From the NCBI GenBank assembly GCA_023261505.1, contig JAHFOV010000016.1:1-40308 (forward strand): 40,308 bases of DNA. Reading direction: 5' to 3'. The position numbers were made by a program, and so were the translations under genes. The stretch comes from Planctomycetota bacterium. Lineage in GTDB: Bacteria; Planctomycetota; Brocadiia; Brocadiales; Bathyanammoxibiaceae. Below the pieces are notes generated by a model. It did no database searches. It was given only the letters and a program-made list of their open reading frames with translations, and was not told the DNA's origin. This document shows, one piece after another, positions 3,953-29,931 of the stretch; the stretch's first letter is position 1; each line of letters begins with the position of its first letter.

Positions 3953-6085
3953 TCATGAACTGTACCTTAGCAGCCTCAGCCCGTTGAAGATGACCAGCAG
4001 GGAGGCGCCCATGTCGGCACCCACTGCCATCCAGAGGGTGGCCAGGCCAAGGGCGGCCAATCCCAGGAAAACGGCCTTCACTCCTATGGCAAAGGCGAGG
4101 TTTTGTTTTATTACCCTCAAGGTCTGCCTGCTGAGTGCCAGGGCAAAAGGTATCTTAGTGAGGTCATCGGCCATGAGGGCAATATCAGCAGTCTCCAGGG
4201 CAGTGTCTGTCCCTGCCGTTCCCATGGCAATACCTATTGTGGCGGCGGCCAGGGCGGGGGCGTCGTTTACGCCGTCCCCTACCATAGCTGTTTTCCCATA
4301 ATTTTGGGTCAAGTGCCTTACCGCCTCCACCTTGTCCTCAGGTGAAAGCTCTGCCATGTATTCCTCTACGCCCAATTTTCCAGCAATAGCCTGGGCCGTT
4401 CCCTTATTGTCACCTGTGAGCATAACTATCTTTTTTATACCCTTTTCCCTTAGTGCAACCATGGTAGGCTTGCTTACTGGTCTTACCTCATCAGCCACAG
4501 TTATAGTTCCTAATAGCTTATCTTCGCTGCCTATCAGCATAACCGTCTTTCCCTGGGATTGGAGCATGGAGAGGAGTTTCTCTGCCTTCGCTGTTGGTAC
4601 TCCTAGTTCTCTAAAGAACTTCAGGTTGCCGATGTAACAGTATTTATCCTGGATTCTGGCCATAGCCCCTTTTCCAGGAACAGTTTTGTAGTCTACAGCC
4701 TCTAACAGTTTAAGTTTTTCTTCTCTAGCCCTTCTGAGGATGGCCCCAGCTAGATGATGTTCTGATCGAGCCTCCACGGAGGCAGCTACCCGCAGGAGTT
4801 CGTCATGCGATAGGGAGTCAATAGGTATGATGTCAATCACCTCTGGCACACCTTTGGTGAGGGTTCCAGTTTTGTCGAAAGCTATTGCCTTCAGGCTGCC
4901 TGCCTCCTCCAGGTGGACACCACCTTTTATGAGAACACCATGCTGGGCGGCACAAGTTATACCCGACAAAAGGCTTACGGGGGTAGCTATAACCAGGGCA
5001 CATGGGCAAGATATTACCAGAAAAACCAATCCCATGTAGAGCCACGGAACAAAATCTGCTCCCAGAAGGGCCCAAGGTACAGTAGCCACGAGAAAGGCTA
5101 TACCTATTACTATGGGTGTGTATATCCTGGCAAACTTATCCACAAAGCTATGGTATGGGGCCTTCTGGGCCTGGCACTCCTCTACAAGATGAATCATACG
5201 GGATAGGGTAGTGTCCTTTGCCAGATGGTTCACCCTCACTTCCAGTACCCCTTCCCTGTTAATGGTTCCGGCGAATACCTCACGGCCAGGGTATTTTTCT
5301 ATAGGGGTGGACTCCCCTGTGATTGGGGCCTGATTTACTGTTGAATAACCTTCTATTACAATTCCATCTAAAGGTATCTTCTCTGAAGGTCTTACAATGA
5401 GTATATCCCCTAACTGTACCTCGTTAACAGGCAGAGATACCTCCTCCTTCCCCCTCCTCACCAGGCCCTCTGTGGGGGTCAGGGTCATAAGCGACCTTAT
5501 TGTGTCTCTTGCCCTGTCAAGGCTATAAGTTTCCAGGAGTTGGGCCAGGGAAAATAGCGCAATGACTGTGGCCGCCTCTCCCCATTCCCCGATTGCCGCT
5601 GCCCCTACCACTGCCATGGACATCAGGGTGTTCATGTCAAGGGAAAGTTCCTTGGCCGCTAGAAACCCTTTGTGGAAAATTCTTACTCCTCCAGTGGACA
5701 TGGCCACCAGGTATATTGGTATGGTTATCTCTCTTGGAAAGCCCCTAAGCGCTAAAGCCAATCCCAAAAGTGCGAATAGTCCGGAGAGGATGGTAAGGAT
5801 AAGCTGTTTTTGTCTCCCCCAGTCCACCTTTCTGGGTGTCCAGGTCTCAAGCAAGGTGGCCTCAAGCCCCGTCTCCTGTATAAGTCCCAGGATTTCTTTT
5901 ATATCTATAAGGCTGCTGTCATATTTTACCCTTACTTCCTGGGAGAGAAGGAGAGTATCCAGTTGTAATACGCCTTTAAGGCCCGAGAGTTTCTTTTTGA
6001 TGAGATGGGCCTCCTCCTGGCAGTCCATAGCCGGCACTTTCAGGGTGACCAATTTTTCTTTTTGATTTTGCATCACGGGGGGCAT
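3953..6085 (-). CDS. Heavy-metal-transporting P-type ATPase (Zn/Cd/Pb type)
   Basis: A 710-residue P1B-type ATPase that would export divalent heavy metals across the inner membrane. An N-terminal ferredoxin-like metal-binding domain carries MDCQEE (20-25), the variant motif typical of Zn/Cd/Pb pumps rather than CxxC. Next come membrane helices, the TGES dephosphorylation loop (256-259), the CPC metal site in the membrane (360-362), the phosphorylated Asp in DKTGT (404-408), MLTGDN (555-560) and GDGVND (603-608). The conserved nucleotide-binding HP pair is HH (SEHHLA, 441-446). It is a single-gene unit with its own promoter and terminator. The start may be ATG 6085 or ATG 6073; neither has a strong Shine-Dalgarno sequence. 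Confidence 0.95.
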   Translation of the reverse strand: MPPVMQNQKEKLVTLKVPAMDCQEEAHLIKKKLSGLKGVLQLDTLLLSQEVRVKYDSSLIDIKEILGLIQETGLEATLLETWTPRKVDWGRQKQLILTILSGLFALLGLALALRGFPREITIPIYLVAMSTGGVRIFHKGFLAAKELSLDMNTLMSMAVVGAAAIGEWGEAATVIALFSLAQLLETYSLDRARDTIRSLMTLTPTEGLVRRGKEEVSLPVNEVQLGDILIVRPSEKIPLDGIVIEGYSTVNQAPITGESTPIEKYPGREVFAGTINREGVLEVRVNHLAKDTTLSRMIHLVEECQAQKAPYHSFVDKFARIYTPIVIGIAFLVATVPWALLGADFVPWLYMGLVFLVISCPCALVIATPVSLLSGITCAAQHGVLIKGGVHLEEAGSLKAIAFDKTGTLTKGVPEVIDIIPIDSLSHDELLRVAASVEARSEHHLAGAILRRAREEKLKLLEAVDYKTVPGKGAMARIQDKYCYIGNLKFFRELGVPTAKAEKLLSMLQSQGKTVMLIGSEDKLLGTITVADEVRPVSKPTMVALREKGIKKIVMLTGDNKGTAQAIAGKLGVEEYMAELSPEDKVEAVRHLTQNYGKTAMVGDGVNDAPALAAATIGIAMGTAGTDTALETADIALMADDLTKIPFALALSRQTLRVIKQNLAFAIGVKAVFLGLAALGLATLWMAVGADMGASLLVIFNGLRLLRYSS

Positions 6086-17580: not shown

Positions 17581-19323
17581 ATGGTAGAGACCAGAGAAAG
17601 AAAGGGCCTGTTAGAGATTCTCCTTCAGGAGGGCAAACTCTCTGAACCAGATATAGAGAGGGTTAGAGGTGTCCAACAGCAGACCGGCCAGAAGGACTGG
17701 CAGATACTCTTGCAATTGGGGATGCTTTCTGAGGAGGACCTTAGAAATGCCCAGGGTCTTTATTTTAAGCTCCCTGTATGGGAGAAAAAGAAGAAGGAGG
17801 TTTACCCCCTCCTGGGGGATTTGCCTTACAACTTTCTAAGCAGGAACAAAATACTCCCCTTAAGGATGTCAAATGGGGAACTGGATGTTGCTGTTGCTCA
17901 TCCAGAAGATACCACCCTTGTGGAGACCCTTCGCCATACAGCCAGGACAAAGTTAAATGTGAAGAAGCTTAACGTCTATGTGGGGTGCGAGAGGGATATC
18001 CAGCAGGGACTGGATGAGCTCTTTGGGATCGAAGGAGAGAGTAAATCCAGTGAGGTAGTTGTTGGAGCAGGGGTGGCGGATGACATAGAAAAGCTAAAGG
18101 ATATGGCCTCAGAGGCCCCCGTCATCCGCTTTGTACACAACACCATAACCAGGGCGATTGAGATAGGTGCAAGTGATATACACCTGGAAGCATTTGAGAA
18201 AAATGCCAGACTTCGCTACAGGGTGGATGGGATGCTCAGCGACTTTCCTTCTCCAAACAAAGACCTGTACCCTGCTATCATATCCAGGATAAAGATAATG
18301 GCCAGGCTTAACATCGCTGAGAAGAGGCTTCCCCAGGATGGCAGGATAAAAGTACCCCTTTCTGGGAGAGAAGTAGATATAAGGGTTTCTTTAATCCCTA
18401 CTATCCATGGAGAGGGGGTGGTCCTGAGGATACTTGACCGCTCTTCCGTTTGTCTTGAACTGGACAAGCTGGGCTTCCAGGAAGACATACTCAGAAAATT
18501 CAGGTTCCTGGCAAGAAAGTCTGAGGGAATGATTCTGGTTACAGGCCCTACGGGAAGTGGTAAGACTACTAGCCTTTACTCTATACTCCGTGAGATTAAG
18601 TCACCTGATATAAAGATAGTTACCGTGGAAGACCCTGTGGAGTATAGTCTGGATGGTATAAGCCAGATGCAGACAAACCCCCAGATAAACCTCAACTTTG
18701 CCTCTGCCCTGCGAAACATCCTCCGCCACGACCCCGACGTCATCCTCATAGGAGAGATAAGAGACCGAGAGACTGCAGATATTGCCGTCCAGGCCTCCCT
18801 GACAGGCCACCTGGTATTTTCCACCCTCCATACCAATAATGCGGCCTCGGCCTTCACCAGGCTACAGGATATGGGGATAGAGAGTTATCTACTGGCCTCC
18901 TCCGTCATCGGTGTCATGGCCCAAAGGCTACTGCGAACGTTATGCCCAAGATGTAAAGAGGAATATAGAGGAGCGACACCTCCCATAAACCCTCCTCTTG
19001 AGGGATTTTTGAATCCTGCTGTAATTCCCCTCAACAAAGACAAGCAGGATACACTTGACAGGTTGTACAAGGCTGTCGGGTGCGAGGAGTGCATGCAGAG
19101 CGGCTACCGGGGTAGGGCCGCTATAGGAGAACTCCTGGCGGTGGACGATGCCATAAGGGGCCAGGTAATGGCCCAGAAGGACTCCCTTGCCATTAACAAG
19201 CTAGCCATGAGCAAAGGGATGAAGACCCTCTGGCAGGATGGGTTAGAAAAAGTAAAAGCTGGCCTCACCACCCTGGAAGAACTAAAACGGGTAATTGATA
19301 CGGATGATGAGTATATAGAATAA
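17581..19323 (+). CDS. gspE: Type II secretion assembly ATPase GspE
   Basis: A 580-residue hexameric ATPase at the cytoplasmic face that drives pseudopilus growth. The N-terminal MshEN-type domain (1-150) is followed by ASDIHLE, the Walker A GPTGSGKTT (about 322-330), the Asp box VEDPVEY, Walker B ILIGEIRD and His box STLHTNNA. A zinc-binding tetracysteine motif is present (CPRC about 458, then CEEC about 502), with an extended loop between the pairs. It could also be a PilB-like ATPase, but the GspG neighbour and the gsp arm on the other strand favour GspE. Confidence 0.94.
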   Translation: MVETRERKGLLEILLQEGKLSEPDIERVRGVQQQTGQKDWQILLQLGMLSEEDLRNAQGLYFKLPVWEKKKKEVYPLLGDLPYNFLSRNKILPLRMSNGELDVAVAHPEDTTLVETLRHTARTKLNVKKLNVYVGCERDIQQGLDELFGIEGESKSSEVVVGAGVADDIEKLKDMASEAPVIRFVHNTITRAIEIGASDIHLEAFEKNARLRYRVDGMLSDFPSPNKDLYPAIISRIKIMARLNIAEKRLPQDGRIKVPLSGREVDIRVSLIPTIHGEGVVLRILDRSSVCLELDKLGFQEDILRKFRFLARKSEGMILVTGPTGSGKTTSLYSILREIKSPDIKIVTVEDPVEYSLDGISQMQTNPQINLNFASALRNILRHDPDVILIGEIRDRETADIAVQASLTGHLVFSTLHTNNAASAFTRLQDMGIESYLLASSVIGVMAQRLLRTLCPRCKEEYRGATPPINPPLEGFLNPAVIPLNKDKQDTLDRLYKAVGCEECMQSGYRGRAAIGELLAVDDAIRGQVMAQKDSLAINKLAMSKGMKTLWQDGLEKVKAGLTTLEELKRVIDTDDEYIE

Positions 19324-19840: not shown

Positions 19841-21790
19841 TTACTTACACGGCTGATTAAAGAATTCACTAGGGCATAGCCAATCAGCTTTTATTTCCTC
19901 ATGAATTGGGTCGCTTTTGCTCATTTCACACTCCGTAGAACAGTCATATTTTGGCCATTTAACAGTAATTGCTGCACTGGGTCGTAATGTGCTATTGGGA
20001 TTGGGGGCTACCGAGTATTGTAGCGTTGCGTCACCGTTTCCTTTATCGGGTGAGGTGATGGTAATCCAGTTTCCTTTTGCATCTTTGGAGGCTTTCCAGT
20101 AACATCCACTTCCAGTTACTAAGCTTAGGCTACCATCACCACCATTTGCGGTGAAAGTCCTTTTCGTTGAAGAGATGAGGGGTTTATTGCAAGGGGTTAT
20201 AAGTTTTCCTTCTTGAATTATATCGTAGGTTTGTCCTTGAATTGTTATACTACCTCTGCGTCTTGTGCTGCTAGTATTAGGGGCAATCTTGAATTGCACC
20301 GTCCCATTCCCGTAGCCGCTATTAACTGTGAGGAAGGTAATCCAGCCTACATTTTCAGGTTTGGAGGCTGTCCAGTAACATCCACTCCCGCTTGATACGT
20401 TTAAGCTACCAGTACCCCCACCCGCAGGGAAGATACCACTAGTTGGGGAAAGGGAATAGATACAAGAAGGTGCGGGCGCACCTCCCTCACTTATAGTATG
20501 GGTTTGTTTTGGAGCACGGTAGATAGTGGTATATCCAGGGTAGTACCATTCATTAGTACGAGGGTCGAGTTTTGTTTTGTATGTCCTAGTAAGAGGGTCG
20601 AATCCTCCTAAGTATTCCCCCTTCCTGATTCCAAAATGCAAGTGTGGCCCGCTTCCATAGTCTACCTGTTGATTTGTAATGTATCCAACCGGATCGCCCT
20701 TTTTAATCGTGTTATACCCTGGTTCCATGCTAAGCTTTATAGGTGGCTTCCCTGACCAAGTTTTCTGAATATGGTAATAAACACTTGTTACCTCTGTGCC
20801 ATAGGGGTCACCAGGGGGTAGCGTATGTTGAATATGTACTGCATTCCCAAGCCCTGGAATATAACCTACAAATTTTACAATCCCATCTCCTATTGCCTTC
20901 ACGGGTGTTCCAGCGGAAATATTAATAATCGCGTCATTTACCTTTATTACCTTTACCAAGTCTTCCCCTAAGTGTATCCCACACCATTCACAGTCGAATT
21001 CTCCAAAATGTTGAGTAACCTTCCAGCCAAGGTAATTATCCAGAGGGGGCTGAAAACAGCAGGACCTGCTAAATCTGCAAATAATGTTCGCTGAGACAGT
21101 CGTATCCTGCACCATTGCAGAGGAGGTTGACGGTGTTACTGTAGTATTGTTTACAGTGGCAATTGTGTCACTAACTACGGCATTACTATCTACGCCCGAA
21201 ATGCTGGTATCCATGATAAAATTGCATGAGTCATCTATAGAGCCATCAGGCCTGAGCTTCAAGACCCAGAGGTTCACATATCCAGCACCGAAGGAACCTG
21301 TCCCGCCCGCCACGATGTATCCCCCATCGCTGGTCTGCTGGATGGAAGTGGCCCAGTCATAATAAGCACCCCCGTAGGTCTTCTGCCAGGCAGGAGTGCC
21401 ATCGGCATTAAGCTTTAATACCCAGAGGTCCCAATCTCCAGCACCGAAGAACAATGTCGAGCTCGCCACGATGTATCCCCCATCGCTGGTCTGCTGGATG
21501 GAACCGCCCGTATTAGAATAAGCACCCCCGTAGGCCTTCTGCCAGGCAGGAGTGCCATCGGCATTGAGCTTCAAGACCCAGGGATGTCCACCGAAGGAAC
21601 CTGTCTGGCCTGCCACGATGTATCCCCCATCGCTGGTCTGCTGGATGGAACTGGCCCCGTCACCAGAAGCACCCCCGTAGGTGGCGGCCCACTGGGCATT
21701 AGCAGGAGAGGCATTGAAGAGAAGAAAAATAGAAAAAAGGATAGAGACTAAAGGAGGCAAGTGCACCCTGACGGTGGATTCCATGTCCAT
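19841..21790 (-). CDS. Secreted M23 (LytM-type) peptidase with N-terminal repeats and two BACON-like domains
   Basis: A 649-residue exported protein. Signal peptide residues 1-32 end ANA/QW. Residues 33-185 hold three repeats of about 50 residues (SIQQTSDGGYIVAG, VLKLNADGTPAWQK), a beta-propeller-like unit. Residues 265-400 are an M23 zinc endopeptidase domain with HLGED (H273, D277), YYH (H340) and GPHLHFGI (H383, H385), all ligands intact; such enzymes cut peptidoglycan cross-bridges or surface proteins. Residues about 445-615 are two BACON-like domains (SGSGCYW repeated), often carbohydrate- or mucin-binding. The gene sits next to the type II secretion arms, so it could be a cargo. Its promoter contains a G9 tract. 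Confidence 0.88.
   Translation of the reverse strand: MDMESTVRVHLPPLVSILFSIFLLFNASPANAQWAATYGGASGDGASSIQQTSDGGYIVAGQTGSFGGHPWVLKLNADGTPAWQKAYGGAYSNTGGSIQQTSDGGYIVASSTLFFGAGDWDLWVLKLNADGTPAWQKTYGGAYYDWATSIQQTSDGGYIVAGGTGSFGAGYVNLWVLKLRPDGSIDDSCNFIMDTSISGVDSNAVVSDTIATVNNTTVTPSTSSAMVQDTTVSANIICRFSRSCCFQPPLDNYLGWKVTQHFGEFDCEWCGIHLGEDLVKVIKVNDAIINISAGTPVKAIGDGIVKFVGYIPGLGNAVHIQHTLPPGDPYGTEVTSVYYHIQKTWSGKPPIKLSMEPGYNTIKKGDPVGYITNQQVDYGSGPHLHFGIRKGEYLGGFDPLTRTYKTKLDPRTNEWYYPGYTTIYRAPKQTHTISEGGAPAPSCIYSLSPTSGIFPAGGGTGSLNVSSGSGCYWTASKPENVGWITFLTVNSGYGNGTVQFKIAPNTSSTRRRGSITIQGQTYDIIQEGKLITPCNKPLISSTKRTFTANGGDGSLSLVTGSGCYWKASKDAKGNWITITSPDKGNGDATLQYSVAPNPNSTLRPSAAITVKWPKYDCSTECEMSKSDPIHEEIKADWLCPSEFFNQPCK
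21311..21655 (-). repeat. Three near-identical units in the M23 protein gene
   Basis: A roughly 40-base block starting CACGATGTATCCCCCATC recurs at 21311, 21467 and 21614 on the plus strand, with offsets of 156 and 147 bases. Each unit codes the repeat SIQQTSDGGYIVA. The near-identity at DNA level points to recent duplication or gene conversion and allows copy-number change by recombination. Confidence 0.85.
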
Positions 21791-21855
21791 AATCCTTCTG
21801 AGCTTAAGTAATTAAGCAACCCAATAAAAAACTCTTAACTCCCTATTTTGTGCAA

Positions 21856-21882
21856 ATTTTACCCCCCCCCGTAAAATGTCAA
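21856..21882 (-). promoter_or_regulatory. Candidate phase-variable promoter with a G9 spacer tract
   Basis: Minus strand: TTGACA (21882-21877, perfect -35) and TAAAAT (21861-21856, one mismatch from the -10 consensus), with a 15-base spacer made of TTTTAC plus nine G (C9 at 21862-21870 on plus). It lies 66 bases upstream of the M23 protein ATG. Fifteen is shorter than the optimal 17, so the present length would be weak and gain of one or two G would strengthen it. Confidence 0.6.
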
Positions 21883-21914
21883 GAAAATTTTTCTGGATTT
21901 GTGAAATATTTTAT

Positions 21915-21938
21915 GCCTGAGGAAGACTCACCTCAGGC
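21915..21938 (-). terminator. Hairpin after gspF, possible terminator
   Basis: GCCTGAGG/CCTCAGGC, 8-bp perfect stem with an 8-base loop, 74 bases past the gspF stop and just before the M23 promoter. On the minus strand it is followed by TAAAATATTT, only a weak T tract, so it would be an imperfect terminator between the two transcription units. Confidence 0.5.
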
Positions 21939-22011: not shown

Positions 22012-23208
22012 TCAGAAGCTATCCGTCAGGCTGAAGATGGAGCTAAGCATAGAGACTACTATTAGGCCGATGACCAGCCCCATGAAGAGGATGAGCATGG
22101 GTTCTAGAAGTGTAACAACCCTCTTAATCCTTTCCTCTAGCTCCACCTCCTGGTTATCCGCTATCTTTAGGAGCATTTTGTCCATACAGCCCGTTTCTTC
22201 TCCTGCCGCTAAAATATGTATACTAGAACCCTGGAGGAAGCCCCTCTTGCCCAGCGAGGCAGTCAGGCTCATACCCTGTTTTACCTCGGCCTTTGCCCTT
22301 TCAACACAATCTGCCAGGTAGCTGTTGGTAAGGGTGTTCTGAACAAGGTCAAGGGAGCGGATTAGGGGTACACCGTTTTCCAGAAGGGTGCCGAGGGAGC
22401 GGGCGAACCTGGAGGTCTCTATTTCCCAGAAGACCTTGCCTACATAGGGCAGTTTCAATTTAATACGGTCTAGCTTCTCTCTTATTAATCTGTGGTTTTT
22501 AAGTACCCTCAAATAAAAGAGGAAAAACAAGAGGAGCCCGAGGAGTACTGCCCAACCGTAATCGGAGATGCCTTTACTGATACCGCCGAGTATGTAGAGG
22601 GGCAATGGGGTAGGCATATCCATACTAGCAAAGATTTCTGTGAAGCTGGGAACCACATAGGTGACAATGACAGTGATAGACATCAGGCCGGTAAAGAGTA
22701 GTATTATGGGGTATATCATGGCGGAGACCACGGCGCTCTTTACCTTTTCTACCCTTTCCTCGTATTGGGTAATCCTTTTCAATACGTCAGGCAGTACACC
22801 CCCTTCTTCTCCCGCCTGAATCATACTTATGTGGACAGGGGAAAATATCCTGGGGTAATCAGAGAGGGCCTGGGCTAGAGACCTTCCTGACTTTAGTGAA
22901 ATCAGTACATCTTCCAACAGGGCCTTGGTAGATTTATCCTGCTGGGCGTTCATCATGAGCCTGAGACTTCTATCTATTGGTATGCCACCCTCCAGCAGGG
23001 TAGCCAATTCCCTGGTAATGAGATAGAGGGCCTTCTTAGAAGTTCGCCAGGAGACACCTCTGCGCCTCCTGGCCGCCTTCTGGACCTTCAGGACGATGTA
23101 GCCTTCCCTCTTTAATTCCTCTACCAACTGGGCCTGATTCGGAGCGTCCTTCTGACCCTCTATCAGCCTGTTGGATGTGCTTATGGCTTGATATGAGAAG
23201 GTCTCCAT
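22012..23208 (-). CDS. gspF: Type II secretion inner-membrane platform protein GspF
   Basis: A 398-residue polytopic protein of the PilC/GspF family. Two repeated T2SSF domains (about 65-190 and 270-390) contain ITRELATLLEGGIPIDRSL and FARSLGTLLENGVPLIRSL, with three membrane helices (around 165-190, 215-240 and 370-395). It docks the ATPase GspE at the membrane. Its start overlaps the gspC frame by 28 bases; GGTTTAGGTGG precedes the ATG. It is the last gene of the D-I-J-K-L-M-C-F arm. Confidence 0.95.
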   Translation of the reverse strand: METFSYQAISTSNRLIEGQKDAPNQAQLVEELKREGYIVLKVQKAARRRRGVSWRTSKKALYLITRELATLLEGGIPIDRSLRLMMNAQQDKSTKALLEDVLISLKSGRSLAQALSDYPRIFSPVHISMIQAGEEGGVLPDVLKRITQYEERVEKVKSAVVSAMIYPIILLFTGLMSITVIVTYVVPSFTEIFASMDMPTPLPLYILGGISKGISDYGWAVLLGLLLFFLFYLRVLKNHRLIREKLDRIKLKLPYVGKVFWEIETSRFARSLGTLLENGVPLIRSLDLVQNTLTNSYLADCVERAKAEVKQGMSLTASLGKRGFLQGSSIHILAAGEETGCMDKMLLKIADNQEVELEERIKRVVTLLEPMLILFMGLVIGLIVVSMLSSIFSLTDSF

Positions 23209-23901: not shown

Positions 23902-24480
23902 TTATCTATTTATGAGAGCAAAGGTATCTATAGTGGCAGAAAGATGGACTCCTTCGGCATTGTCTAGTTTTTTTAGCTTCAATTCCTTTACTTGACAGAA
24001 AAAATCCTCATCGTTCTCAAGTTGGTAAAGAAATTTCTGCAGTTTTTCTGCCTTGGGGATGGCTTCTATTTCTATAGCCATTTCTAACTTGAGTAAAAGC
24101 GGATCATTACACAGCGCTTCCTTTTGTGTAACATCGCTCTTTGAGAGGACCAGGCCGTTCTGTGCGGATATTTTTTTAAGAAGTCTAGGTATTTCTGTTA
24201 AGACCTGCCCCTCATAGGTAGCCTTTATAAGCCTTATGCCTCCCCATGGCTTAGAGCTAGAGGCTTCTGTCTTTATGAGTTTTTCCCTGCTGATAAGGGC
24301 CTGAAGTTTTCTAAGCAGTGTGGCTTTTTCTTTAAGCTCACTATCTAGCGCTGCATTACTGAAGGCAGACATAAAGTCTAAGTAATAAAACAGCACAAAC
24401 CCAGCTATTGATATTACTACCCATATAAGGGCCTTCTCTCTCTTATTTCTTGTTAAATAGTATTCCCTAAGTCCTCTCAT
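23902..24480 (-). CDS. gspM: Type II secretion protein GspM/PilO-like
   Basis: A 192-residue protein with a short cytoplasmic tail, one membrane helix (about 19-35, LIWVVISIAGFVLFYYL), a coiled-coil stretch and a ferredoxin-like periplasmic domain; this is the GspM/PilO plan. Direct sequence conservation in this family is low, so the call rests on topology and position between gspL and gspC. It overlaps gspL by 14 bases. Confidence 0.78.
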   Translation of the reverse strand: MRGLREYYLTRNKREKALIWVVISIAGFVLFYYLDFMSAFSNAALDSELKEKATLLRKLQALISREKLIKTEASSSKPWGGIRLIKATYEGQVLTEIPRLLKKISAQNGLVLSKSDVTQKEALCNDPLLLKLEMAIEIEAIPKAEKLQKFLYQLENDEDFFCQVKELKLKKLDNAEGVHLSATIDTFALINR

Positions 24481-25825
24481 GTAGCTCTTCTCGCAAGATA
24501 TTACCCTTCAAATGAAAGTGGTCTTTACCATCCTTATCCTTTATCACTGGTGGGATTATCTCGACGTTAGAGAATATAGGAGAATTTTCTAGTAGAAACA
24601 TGGTCTCCGCCAGGGAGGTGGTGAACCCTTCCACCTCAAAGGTGTTCTGCTTTACTGAAAATTCCGTTATCCATGCGTCCTGAGGTAGAAGGGTGGAAAA
24701 CTCTAGCAATATGTCAGCCGTAGTGACATAGTCTTTTTGAGACGCCACAACTGCATCTAATGCCTTTTGAGCCCTTGCCGCTCCTTCGAGCTTCTTTAAT
24801 GTGAAGGCCTGTTTCTTTATCCCTTCTATTTCCGCCTCGACAAGGTTTAGTCTTTCTTTTTTCTTTATTTGTGAAATCTGTGGTATGGCAAACAAAAGAG
24901 AAAGTAGGAGGGTTATCAGGGATACCAAATAAAGGTTCTGATAATTTGTTCTCCTCTTATGCGGCCTCAGGAGGTCAAAATCATAAGGGTGAGCGTATGT
25001 CTCATAAAGGGCCGCACCCGTACTCTCCCAGGAGTAATCCAGGTATGTGACAAAGGTTGACTCTGGGAGGACATCGAGAATATTCTGAGAAAGCTTATTT
25101 TCCTCAAACCCAACAGCAAGGATTGCCGTGGGAGAGTATTGTTGCAGACTTTGTTTTAGTTCTTCGTCACCATTACAGATGCGTGTCCCGGCAAGCCCTC
25201 TCATGTGGTAGAAATTATAAATATACCCCTCCTCTCCGTTCCTGTATAAACATACCACCTTTTCTGCCTTCTTCTCTAGCATAGGTATAAAGGCCAGGGG
25301 CGAGGGGATGATGCGTGAAGGCATTAGCCCCATTACGTCCAGCTTTTCAAGGACATTCTCCAGTTCTCTTTTGTTTACCGCAAAGAGGCAGACCTTCTTG
25401 CCCAAAGCGGATTCCTCCACCGCATTTAGCGAGTTGCATGGGTAAAGGTCAAAGTAGGCCTCCCCGGGTCCTATTGGAAAAAGGCTATCCAGTTGGAGGG
25501 CAAGGGTTTCCCTTAACTCGCGAAGGTTTGTATTACTTACGTATAATTCCCTAACCATAGTCCTCTCTCTGGGCCAGGAAAGGATAATTGGTTTCCATTG
25601 ACCCTTTATGGCAAGGGGGTTTGCTCTCAATGCGGAAGGCTCCCGGGACAAAAAATCTTTTACAGTGAATGACCTTAGCTGGGTACTGAACCGCTTTGTT
25701 GAGTCACTAACAAGAAGGTCGTCTCCCCTCAAGGCAAGACCTACGAAAGACGGGAAGAAGGTGCTTATACGTCCACCCGAAGCAGATTTGTTTTTATTCC
25801 GGGTATACGGCAAGGATGCTTTCAT
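24467..25825 (-). CDS. gspL: Type II secretion protein GspL (PilM-PilN-like fusion)
   Basis: A 452-residue protein. The N-terminal 270 residues form an actin-like cytoplasmic domain (IILSWPRERTMVRELYVSN; LLVSDSTKRF) that binds GspE. One membrane helix follows at about 293-312 (LYLVSLITLLLSLLFAIPQI), then a coiled coil and a PilN-type periplasmic domain (LEFSTLLPQDAWITEFSVKQ). It overlaps gspK by 32 bases and gspM by 14, consistent with coupled translation in fixed ratios. Confidence 0.85.
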   Translation of the reverse strand: MKASLPYTRNKNKSASGGRISTFFPSFVGLALRGDDLLVSDSTKRFSTQLRSFTVKDFLSREPSALRANPLAIKGQWKPIILSWPRERTMVRELYVSNTNLRELRETLALQLDSLFPIGPGEAYFDLYPCNSLNAVEESALGKKVCLFAVNKRELENVLEKLDVMGLMPSRIIPSPLAFIPMLEKKAEKVVCLYRNGEEGYIYNFYHMRGLAGTRICNGDEELKQSLQQYSPTAILAVGFEENKLSQNILDVLPESTFVTYLDYSWESTGAALYETYAHPYDFDLLRPHKRRTNYQNLYLVSLITLLLSLLFAIPQISQIKKKERLNLVEAEIEGIKKQAFTLKKLEGAARAQKALDAVVASQKDYVTTADILLEFSTLLPQDAWITEFSVKQNTFEVEGFTTSLAETMFLLENSPIFSNVEIIPPVIKDKDGKDHFHLKGNILREELHERT

Positions 25826-27478: not shown

Positions 27479-27851
27479 CCTGAAGATAAATGTCTGCTAA
27501 AGTTACATCGTAAAGGAAGATACCTTCATTCTCCTCACTAGCCTGCTCCACCACCTTCCACGGCAATCCATCACCGGTCTTACCACTCCAAACCTTTTTA
27601 TTTTCCACCCCTTCAAATTTACCTCCTAGTATTCCCAGGCAGGCCTCTTCTGTCTTGTTAATGGCGTGGAGAGTATTCGTGTTCTTTTCCTTCAGCTTTC
27701 GCGTAATGTAGAGGTGGTCGGCGACTATACTCAAAAGGAGTACTACGCACATTCCCATTAGGGCCATCCCCACAAGCACCTCCAATAGGGTGAAGCCCCA
27801 ACTATTGAACCACCACACTTTCTTTCGCTGTTTTACTACGCAATCTTTCAA
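27450..27851 (-). CDS. gspI: Type II secretion minor pseudopilin GspI
   Basis: A 133-residue pseudopilin with prepilin site WG/FTLLEVLVGMALMGMCVV and a short C-terminal domain containing TEEACLGILGGK, as in GspI. The frame opens with TTG at 27851, inside the gspD coding end; a GTG at 27818 would give a leader of 8 residues, closer to the norm. Either way the gene overlaps gspD (50 or 17 bases). Confidence 0.85.
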   Translation of the reverse strand: MKDCVVKQRKKVWWFNSWGFTLLEVLVGMALMGMCVVLLLSIVADHLYITRKLKEKNTNTLHAINKTEEACLGILGGKFEGVENKKVWSGKTGDGLPWKVVEQASEENEGIFLYDVTLADIYLQGVRIQNKKR

Positions 27852-29931
27852 TGGCCTTCAGCTTATTCTCAAAATCCTTGGTTATTTTATCAGCCTCTTC
27901 AGGGCTGCTCACTATAAAAGGGGTTAATACTAAAAGTAGTTCTGTTTTCTTTTTTGTGATATCTTGAGATTTAAAGAGATTTCCCAATAGAGGCACACTG
28001 CCGAGGACTGGTATCCGTTTAACACTCTTGGTATTGTTTATATCTATAATACTCCCCAGCACAATAGTCCGCCCATTTTCTACCACTAGGGAGGTGGTAG
28101 CCTTCCTAGTAGTAAAGGAGGGGAAGGTTGTACCTGTCGCTCCTATAGTAACAGATGGCCCAATGAAGGTCACTTCCTGGGTGACATCCATGGTAACCAT
28201 ATTGTTCTCCCCAATCCGTGGGGTTACTGTAAGTATTGTGCCTATATCCTTATATTGGATAGCGTTTTGAGTTGCAATCGTAGCACCTGCCTGTGGAGTG
28301 CCACCAGCAATAGGTACTTGAACCTGTGACGTTGCTATTGGCTGTTGCGAACCCACTTGAATAACTGCCTTTTGTTCATGGCGCACGATTATTCTTGGGG
28401 TGGACAATACCTCTACATGGGTAGTTTGAGCCAAAAAGTTAATAATGACATCAACGTCTTTTTGGAGTAAAAAGAGCTTGGTGCCCCCAGGAAGTGTTAC
28501 ATTCGGAGAAGGTGGAGGTACAGTTCCTCTCCCTATACCAGTAACCCCAGTGGGCTGTAGGCTTACGGCAAATCCTTCGTTTAGAGTTCCATTGTTTCTG
28601 AAGAAGTACTCCACTCCATAAGACAAGGCATCGTCTAAAGTTACCTCAGCGATGAGCACTTCTATTAGCACCTGTTTCGGGGTGGCGTCCATTACCTCAA
28701 TAATCCTGCGGATATTTTGATAATCCTGAGGCAGGGCTTTAATGACAAGAGAGTTGCTGTCTGCGTCGGCTATAACCTTGACGGCACCTGCCTGCGTTAC
28801 AGGACCAGCAGCTTTGCCCGGCTCACCAGGTGGCCCAGGGACAGGGGCCTTCAGCCCTCCTTCCTTGGCAAAAAGATCGTTGAGTATGGAAGCCATAGAG
28901 TCGGCCTTTTTGTGTTGCAACTTATATATGTATAGCTGGGCCTCCCCAGGGGATCTTACATCCAGATGCTTTATCCAGAAGTCGACGGTGGGCAACATCT
29001 CAGGGTTTGCCACAGCTACCAGGAGCTTATTGGTATCGCTCATGGGGATAAATCCAATCTGGGCAGCGGGCCCTTTTGGGGGCGCCCCCAAACTATTGAC
29101 AAGGGACTCTAAATCCTTGGCCAGGTTATCTACATTCACGTGTTTGATATCATAAAACTTTACGGCTTTACCAGCAAAAAAGGGAATGTCAAAGGCGTCT
29201 ATCATCGCAACAATACGCTCTATGTTAGAAGCCTTGTCCACTACCACAATAGCATGGGCATCGTTGGGTGCCATTACTATTCCCGCAGGGGTCATAAAAG
29301 CCCTCAGAGCTGGAATTAACATCTGTGGGGCCACATAGTTCAGAGGAACTACCTGGGTAACGATGTCCGCTCCCTTCTTCTCTATCTTTTCCCCAAGGCT
29401 AAGAGTTCCAGGTTCCATCTTTGCTCTTTCTAATAGGGTGACTTCTACCAGGCCGTCTCTTTTCACAAGGGCAAGGTCGTGGACGTTCAAGACTGTCTGG
29501 ATTATATTCAGCATCTCATCTTTATAGAATTGCCCCACCATGCGGAAGGTTAACTCCCCACCCACCTTCTTGTCTATGACATAGTTAACGTTCAGAAGTT
29601 CCCCCAGTAGTACTTTCAAAACTTCTCTTACATCTGCAGATTGAAAGGTTATTGATACAGGTAGCTTCTCCCCCACAGGGGGTGGCAGTATTACCTCTGG
29701 AGCCTTCAGTTCCCTGGGAGTAATAACCTCAGCGGTCAGAGGTGTCTCTTTTTGTACGGCTTCCTCTTTGGTTATCTGCCACTCCCATTGTTTGGTCTCT
29801 TTAGAAGTAGATGTTTTGGGAGCTTCTTGGGCGGTAGAAACGGACTCACCCTTTTGTGCCTTTGTAGTAAAGCACCCAACCATTTCTAGGGCTATCAGAA
29901 AAAATAGTACTAAGCGTAACCCTTTCTTCAT
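27802..29931 (-). CDS. gspD: Type II secretion outer-membrane secretin GspD
   Basis: A 709-residue secretin that forms the outer-membrane channel. N-terminal signal with a lipobox ending MVGC (Cys20), so it is probably a lipoprotein that may not need a separate pilotin. The periplasmic N0 domain (ITFQSADVREVLKVLLGEL) is followed by N1-N3 repeats (VPLNYVAPQMLIPALR; YKLQHKKADSMASILNDLF). The C-terminal secretin domain contains VLIEVLIAEVTLDDALSYGVE and the signature VPVLGSIPLLGNLF-like segment (here RIPVLGSVPLLGNLF). It is the first gene of the D-I-J-K-L-M-C-F arm and has its own promoter. Confidence 0.95.
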   Translation of the reverse strand: MKKGLRLVLFFLIALEMVGCFTTKAQKGESVSTAQEAPKTSTSKETKQWEWQITKEEAVQKETPLTAEVITPRELKAPEVILPPPVGEKLPVSITFQSADVREVLKVLLGELLNVNYVIDKKVGGELTFRMVGQFYKDEMLNIIQTVLNVHDLALVKRDGLVEVTLLERAKMEPGTLSLGEKIEKKGADIVTQVVPLNYVAPQMLIPALRAFMTPAGIVMAPNDAHAIVVVDKASNIERIVAMIDAFDIPFFAGKAVKFYDIKHVNVDNLAKDLESLVNSLGAPPKGPAAQIGFIPMSDTNKLLVAVANPEMLPTVDFWIKHLDVRSPGEAQLYIYKLQHKKADSMASILNDLFAKEGGLKAPVPGPPGEPGKAAGPVTQAGAVKVIADADSNSLVIKALPQDYQNIRRIIEVMDATPKQVLIEVLIAEVTLDDALSYGVEYFFRNNGTLNEGFAVSLQPTGVTGIGRGTVPPPSPNVTLPGGTKLFLLQKDVDVIINFLAQTTHVEVLSTPRIIVRHEQKAVIQVGSQQPIATSQVQVPIAGGTPQAGATIATQNAIQYKDIGTILTVTPRIGENNMVTMDVTQEVTFIGPSVTIGATGTTFPSFTTRKATTSLVVENGRTIVLGSIIDINNTKSVKRIPVLGSVPLLGNLFKSQDITKKKTELLLVLTPFIVSSPEEADKITKDFENKLKAIERLRSKTAKESVVVQ

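Follow-up and report, generated by a model that had tools for sequence, protein, structure and literature searches.

The window, a 40,308-nucleotide stretch of contig JAHFOV010000016.1 from a Planctomycetota bacterium of the order Brocadiales, carries on its minus strand a gene for an exported protein of 649 amino acids, P0001. Pfam places M23, BACON and the DUF5122 beta-propeller repeat (DUF5122/delta-60 repeats) in P0001, and visual inspection shows an evident signal peptide, in agreement with the first-pass annotation, which had described an exported M23/BACON product. The gene lies, as that annotation had also stated, between the arms of a type II secretion system (T2SS) locus, with T2SSE on the plus strand on one side and T2SSF, a PilN-like gene and a secretin gene on the minus strand on the other (Table 1). 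Translation of P0001 likely begins at the second in-frame ATG, which has a better-spaced AGAAGGA than the first (21790).

Table 1. Genes and promoter features of the P0001 region (window coordinates)
Feature	Position	Strand	Remarks
T2SSE gene, plus-strand T2SS arm	17581-19323	+	PF00437
P0001, exported beta-propeller / M23 / BACON protein gene	19841..21790	-	likely start 21784
Promoter block common to window, C83 and C7 (same genome) and C301 of G001	21852..21892	-	blastn, alignments, motif scans
-10 box TAAAAT	21856..21861	-	
G9 tract in promoter spacer (C9 on the plus strand), candidate slippage element	21862..21870	-	
-35 box TTGACA	21877..21882	-	exact consensus
Hairpin between T2SSF gene and window promoter	21913..21936	-	-16.3 kcal/mol
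T2SSF gene upstream of P0001, begins minus-strand T2SS arm	22012-23208	-	PF00482
PilN-like gene	24467-25825	-	
Secretin gene	27802-29931	-	

Upstream of P0001, the minus strand (21882..21856) reads TTGACA-TTTTAC-GGGGGGGGG-TAAAAT, with a spacer of exactly 15 bases. Every element of this arrangement had been described in the first pass, and each proved exact when the sequence was re-read. The end of the -10 hexamer is 65 bases from the first ATG of P0001. A homopolymer thus sits between recognisable -35 and -10 boxes, as at a porA-type locus, and the predicted promoter precedes the gene of a secreted-type protein. Further upstream, the hairpin GCCTGAGG-N8-CCTCAGGC probably marks the end of the upstream operon; it is without a clear U-run, and its role would be that of a terminator. 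No Rfam family matched between 19300 and 23300.

A blastn search of the genome with the window promoter revealed two further copies, at C83 (TTGACT-TCTTAC-G8-TAAAAT) and at C7 (TTGACT-TTTTAC-G9-TAACCT). Across 62 genomes of the order, the pattern TTGAC-N3-6-TTACGGGGG-TAA occurs three times in the source genome, once in G001, a genome of the same family and another genus (G7, at C301), and nowhere else, while the reversed control pattern has no match in these 62 genomes. Versions of the motif with G6 or G7 are absent from the source genome. The C301 locus is identical to a stretch of JASEHG010000037.

Aligned, the four copies are gapless on both sides of the G run and differ there only in the G count, which is 9, 8, 9 and 7 in the window, C83, C7 and C301, giving spacers of 15, 14, 15 and 13 bases. 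The shared block consists of an AT-rich upstream stretch followed by TTGAC-WTYTTAC-Gn-TAA, and similarity among the copies fades outside it. The C7 product is readable as a lipoprotein (MGTLYILTILSLLIICFSGC...) and the C83 product as a 95-residue membrane protein, both without a Pfam family; the C301 product of 141 amino acids belongs to no recognised family and has no obvious export signal. Two other readings of the motif were rejected: a sigma-54 promoter (GG-N10-GC with TGGC/TTGC elements), since in the alignment TTGCA is present in the window copy only, and a phage origin, since viral contigs gave no match.

Long G tracts were counted over the whole genome (2.5 Mb in 147 pieces, with the window as contig 103), which is most likely a metagenome bin and the only member of its genus in the set. 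A pattern search found 16 tracts of G8 or more, twelve of G8 and four of G9, with none longer. An order-3 Markov model, trained on 245 kb of stretches partly picked for containing known tracts, gives about 68 such tracts per 2 Mb; the actual genome holds far fewer long G runs than composition or Markov models predict. TTGAC lies 9-15 bases upstream of 4/16 G8-G9 tracts, counted by the whole-genome search, compared with 10/1856 G4-G7 tracts in the 245 kb background sample (Fisher P=3.4e-6). The four are the window, C7, C83 and possibly the ambiguous C75, without which the enrichment is 3/16 (P=1.4e-4).

Four or five of the 16 tracts look contingency-like. At G000:C33:3252-4001 (minus strand), a PEP-CTERM protein gene has a G9 in codons 15-18 and a good ribosome-binding site ahead of its frame. 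The frame into the signal peptide is open at 9 or 12 G, and 7, 8, 10 or 11 G lead to a stop within a few codons, which makes this tract a candidate translational switch. The C33 and C7 products are largely lineage-specific. The C75 site (G000:C75:5594) reads TTGACA-N7-G9-TATAAG; a short ATG frame (MKKSIFFQLLLTVLWGGG...) spans both TTGACA and the G9 and soon stops, no gene follows on that strand, and the site may be either a promoter or a decayed coding switch. At C46 (G000:C46:14150), a G8 directly precedes a lipoprotein signal sequence; with G7 a MTTVKGG... start would be in frame, with G8 it would not, and the tract may belong to a ribosome-binding site or be an off-frame tract.

In Neisseria, the PorA transcript follows the G count in the promoter spacer (PMC3899988). 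We propose, with a probability of roughly 0.6, that the window holds a sigma-70-type promoter that works in the same way, with the G9 run as its variable element. Replication slippage would add or remove G's and so alter the length of the spacer, from 13 bp at G7 through 14 at G8, 15 at G9 and 16 at G10 to 17 at G11. Single cells would thereby raise or lower transcription of the secreted M23/BACON protein in steps. At least two further genes of the genome would be served in this way, and a translational version, with G9 in the first codons, may serve the PEP-CTERM protein. The benefit would be a mixed surface phenotype.

Promoters of an E. coli library built on consensus boxes drive high expression at spacers of 15-19 bp, with a peak at 17 and a fall below 15 (PMC8695583). 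Taking this E. coli guide across to the window's phylum, with the uncertainty that such a transfer carries, G10-G11 would be the best states, G9 would be intermediate, on the shoulder of the curve, and G7-G8 would be poor or weak. The first-pass expectation of a weak G9 and strong G10-G11 was only roughly right: its weak G9 is uncertain, and by this guide the weak states would be G7 and G8. Its comparison with porA fits the anatomy and the recurrence of a promoter in which only the G count is gapped; variation of the tract within a population and an effect on transcription are what the comparison would predict. Counting against the switch, G9 is short for fast slippage and the genome has a MutS gene, which speaks against defective mismatch repair as a source of high slippage. 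The TTAC flank and the upstream bases, moreover, are conserved beyond what spacing alone needs.

A pattern scan of GTDB genomes placed the exact motif in only one other genome, the Saccharibacteria bin G062 (WRNW01000005.1). Two sites lie there within 0.8 kb (4129-4152 and 4892-4914) once one left-flank base is relaxed, and this genome of 0.7 Mb has about nine TTGAC / poly-G promoters. In the Saccharibacteria family, 29/198 genomes carry poly-G promoters; the pattern matches 110 times and its reversed control 4 times, both figures being sums in which overlapping matches at one site count more than once. The G runs of 54 sites in the family range from 8 to 14 and the spacers from 11 to 21, mostly 13-18. 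The genes that directly follow encode, among others, prepilins (GFTIVELL; TIGR02532), proteins with signal peptides and a family of repeated MTRLPTPG...DYL proteins, and these promoters possibly control phase-variable pili and surface proteins.

Sister promoters of one genome can differ by one G. G096 has a G12 and a G13 promoter with identical right flanks, and the Planctomycetota genome G398 has a G10 and a G11 promoter; several poly-G sites lie at contig ends of draft assemblies, and such one-G differences may include assembly error. The recurrence of poly-G spacer promoters in another phylum, with sisters one G apart, supports the porA-type reading of the window. Within the window's own phylum the pattern gave about 86 summed matches against about 41 for the control; being only about twice control, poly-G promoters are not a general feature of that phylum. 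Repeated poly-G promoters were seen at or near contig ends in G129 (C31, C55, C65 and C81), G398 (C124, C272 and C64) and G096 (C5 and C17), as if assemblies break there.

The same conservation can be read without any switch. The conserved block could define a fixed class of promoters or operators, bound by a regulator of a small regulon either at TTAC-Gn-GTAA half-sites or at the G run. Conservation does reach past the -35 and -10 boxes, both between different genes and into a second genus, and an inverted repeat of 7 bases, ATTTTAC-G8-GTAAAAT, is present in the window copy. Only 4 bases of this repeat are left in the other copies, however, and the Saccharibacteria promoters differ in their left flank yet keep the G run beside the TA box. 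The operator of a dimeric regulator would keep its half-site spacing fixed in all copies, whereas the TTAC/GTAA gap is 8, 7, 8 and 6 across those found, which is unusual for a dimer site. This variation makes a fixed operator less likely, and we regard it as an unlikely explanation that still deserves serious weight.

Quite improbable, in our assessment, is that the block spread by duplication and left an inherited, short and effectively stable remnant, in which the G run now serves no purpose other than as part of a weak promoter. The shortness of the tract, the presence of MutS and the fading of similarity outside the block are all consistent with such a remnant. Against it, this genome is otherwise strongly depleted of long G runs, yet those at these sites are pure, and a separate G9 occupies a frame-switching position of the PEP-CTERM gene. 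A chance promoter-like match around an ordinary homopolymer is very improbable: G9 alone is unsurprising by composition (1.25 expected per window) and a generic promoter scan of the region found sites no more numerous than in shuffles, but TTGACA-N15-TAAAAT occurs once in the window where dinucleotide shuffles predict 0.01, and the promoter both recurs and is enriched.

The window promoter resembles those of Neisseria porA and opc in having poly-G between its -35 and -10 boxes and an exported product. It differs from porA in its perfect TTGACA, in a block shared by at least three genes and in its Brocadiales lineage. The porA product, moreover, is a porin in the outer membrane, in contrast to the secreted M23/BACON protein of the window, whose switching is a prediction. 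A Campylobacter genome carries several poly-G/C tracts, in coding as well as intergenic positions (PMC8355987), and the coding G9 of the C33 PEP-CTERM gene resembles the poly-G contingency genes found there. The source genome, in contrast, has only its 16 tracts of G8 or more, and at the window a switch would act on transcription.

The Saccharibacteria promoters share with the window TTGAC, a short left flank and a G run, there G8-G14, followed by a TA box, and they precede pilin and secreted-protein genes; the exact motif is common to the window and one such genome. They belong to another phylum, however, with more sites per genome, longer tracts and varied left flanks, and a common origin is not indicated. 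Poly-G spacer switching could be a device that evolved repeatedly and independently in uncultured bacteria, environmental as well as episymbiotic, to randomise their surface and secreted proteins; a lineage of the order Brocadiales would have a small set of such switches, and Saccharibacteria a large set at pilin and secreted-repeat genes. We hold this broader view tentatively, at slightly less than even odds.

Most known cases of simple-repeat phase variation come from pathogens and commensals adapted to a host. The broader view, if true, would add uncultured bacteria, both free-living and episymbiotic, and would suggest that chance variation diversifies their surfaces, perhaps as a defence against phages or as an aid to host attachment. 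A search of the literature on phase variation in anammox bacteria, Brocadia, Planctomycetes, Patescibacteria and Saccharibacteria, with subscription papers mostly outside its scope, found no such switch. The mechanism is already known from Neisseria porA, and its apparent occurrence in a Brocadiales lineage would be new.

A protein search of the genome contigs with P0001 found no relative there. Relatives elsewhere match mainly the repeat part, and the M23 and BACON parts are matched only piecemeal, in other proteins, so that P0001 offers no orthologous promoter comparison. The beta-propeller repeat region itself belongs to a large multi-copy family in genomes of family f1, some copies of which have in-frame stops.
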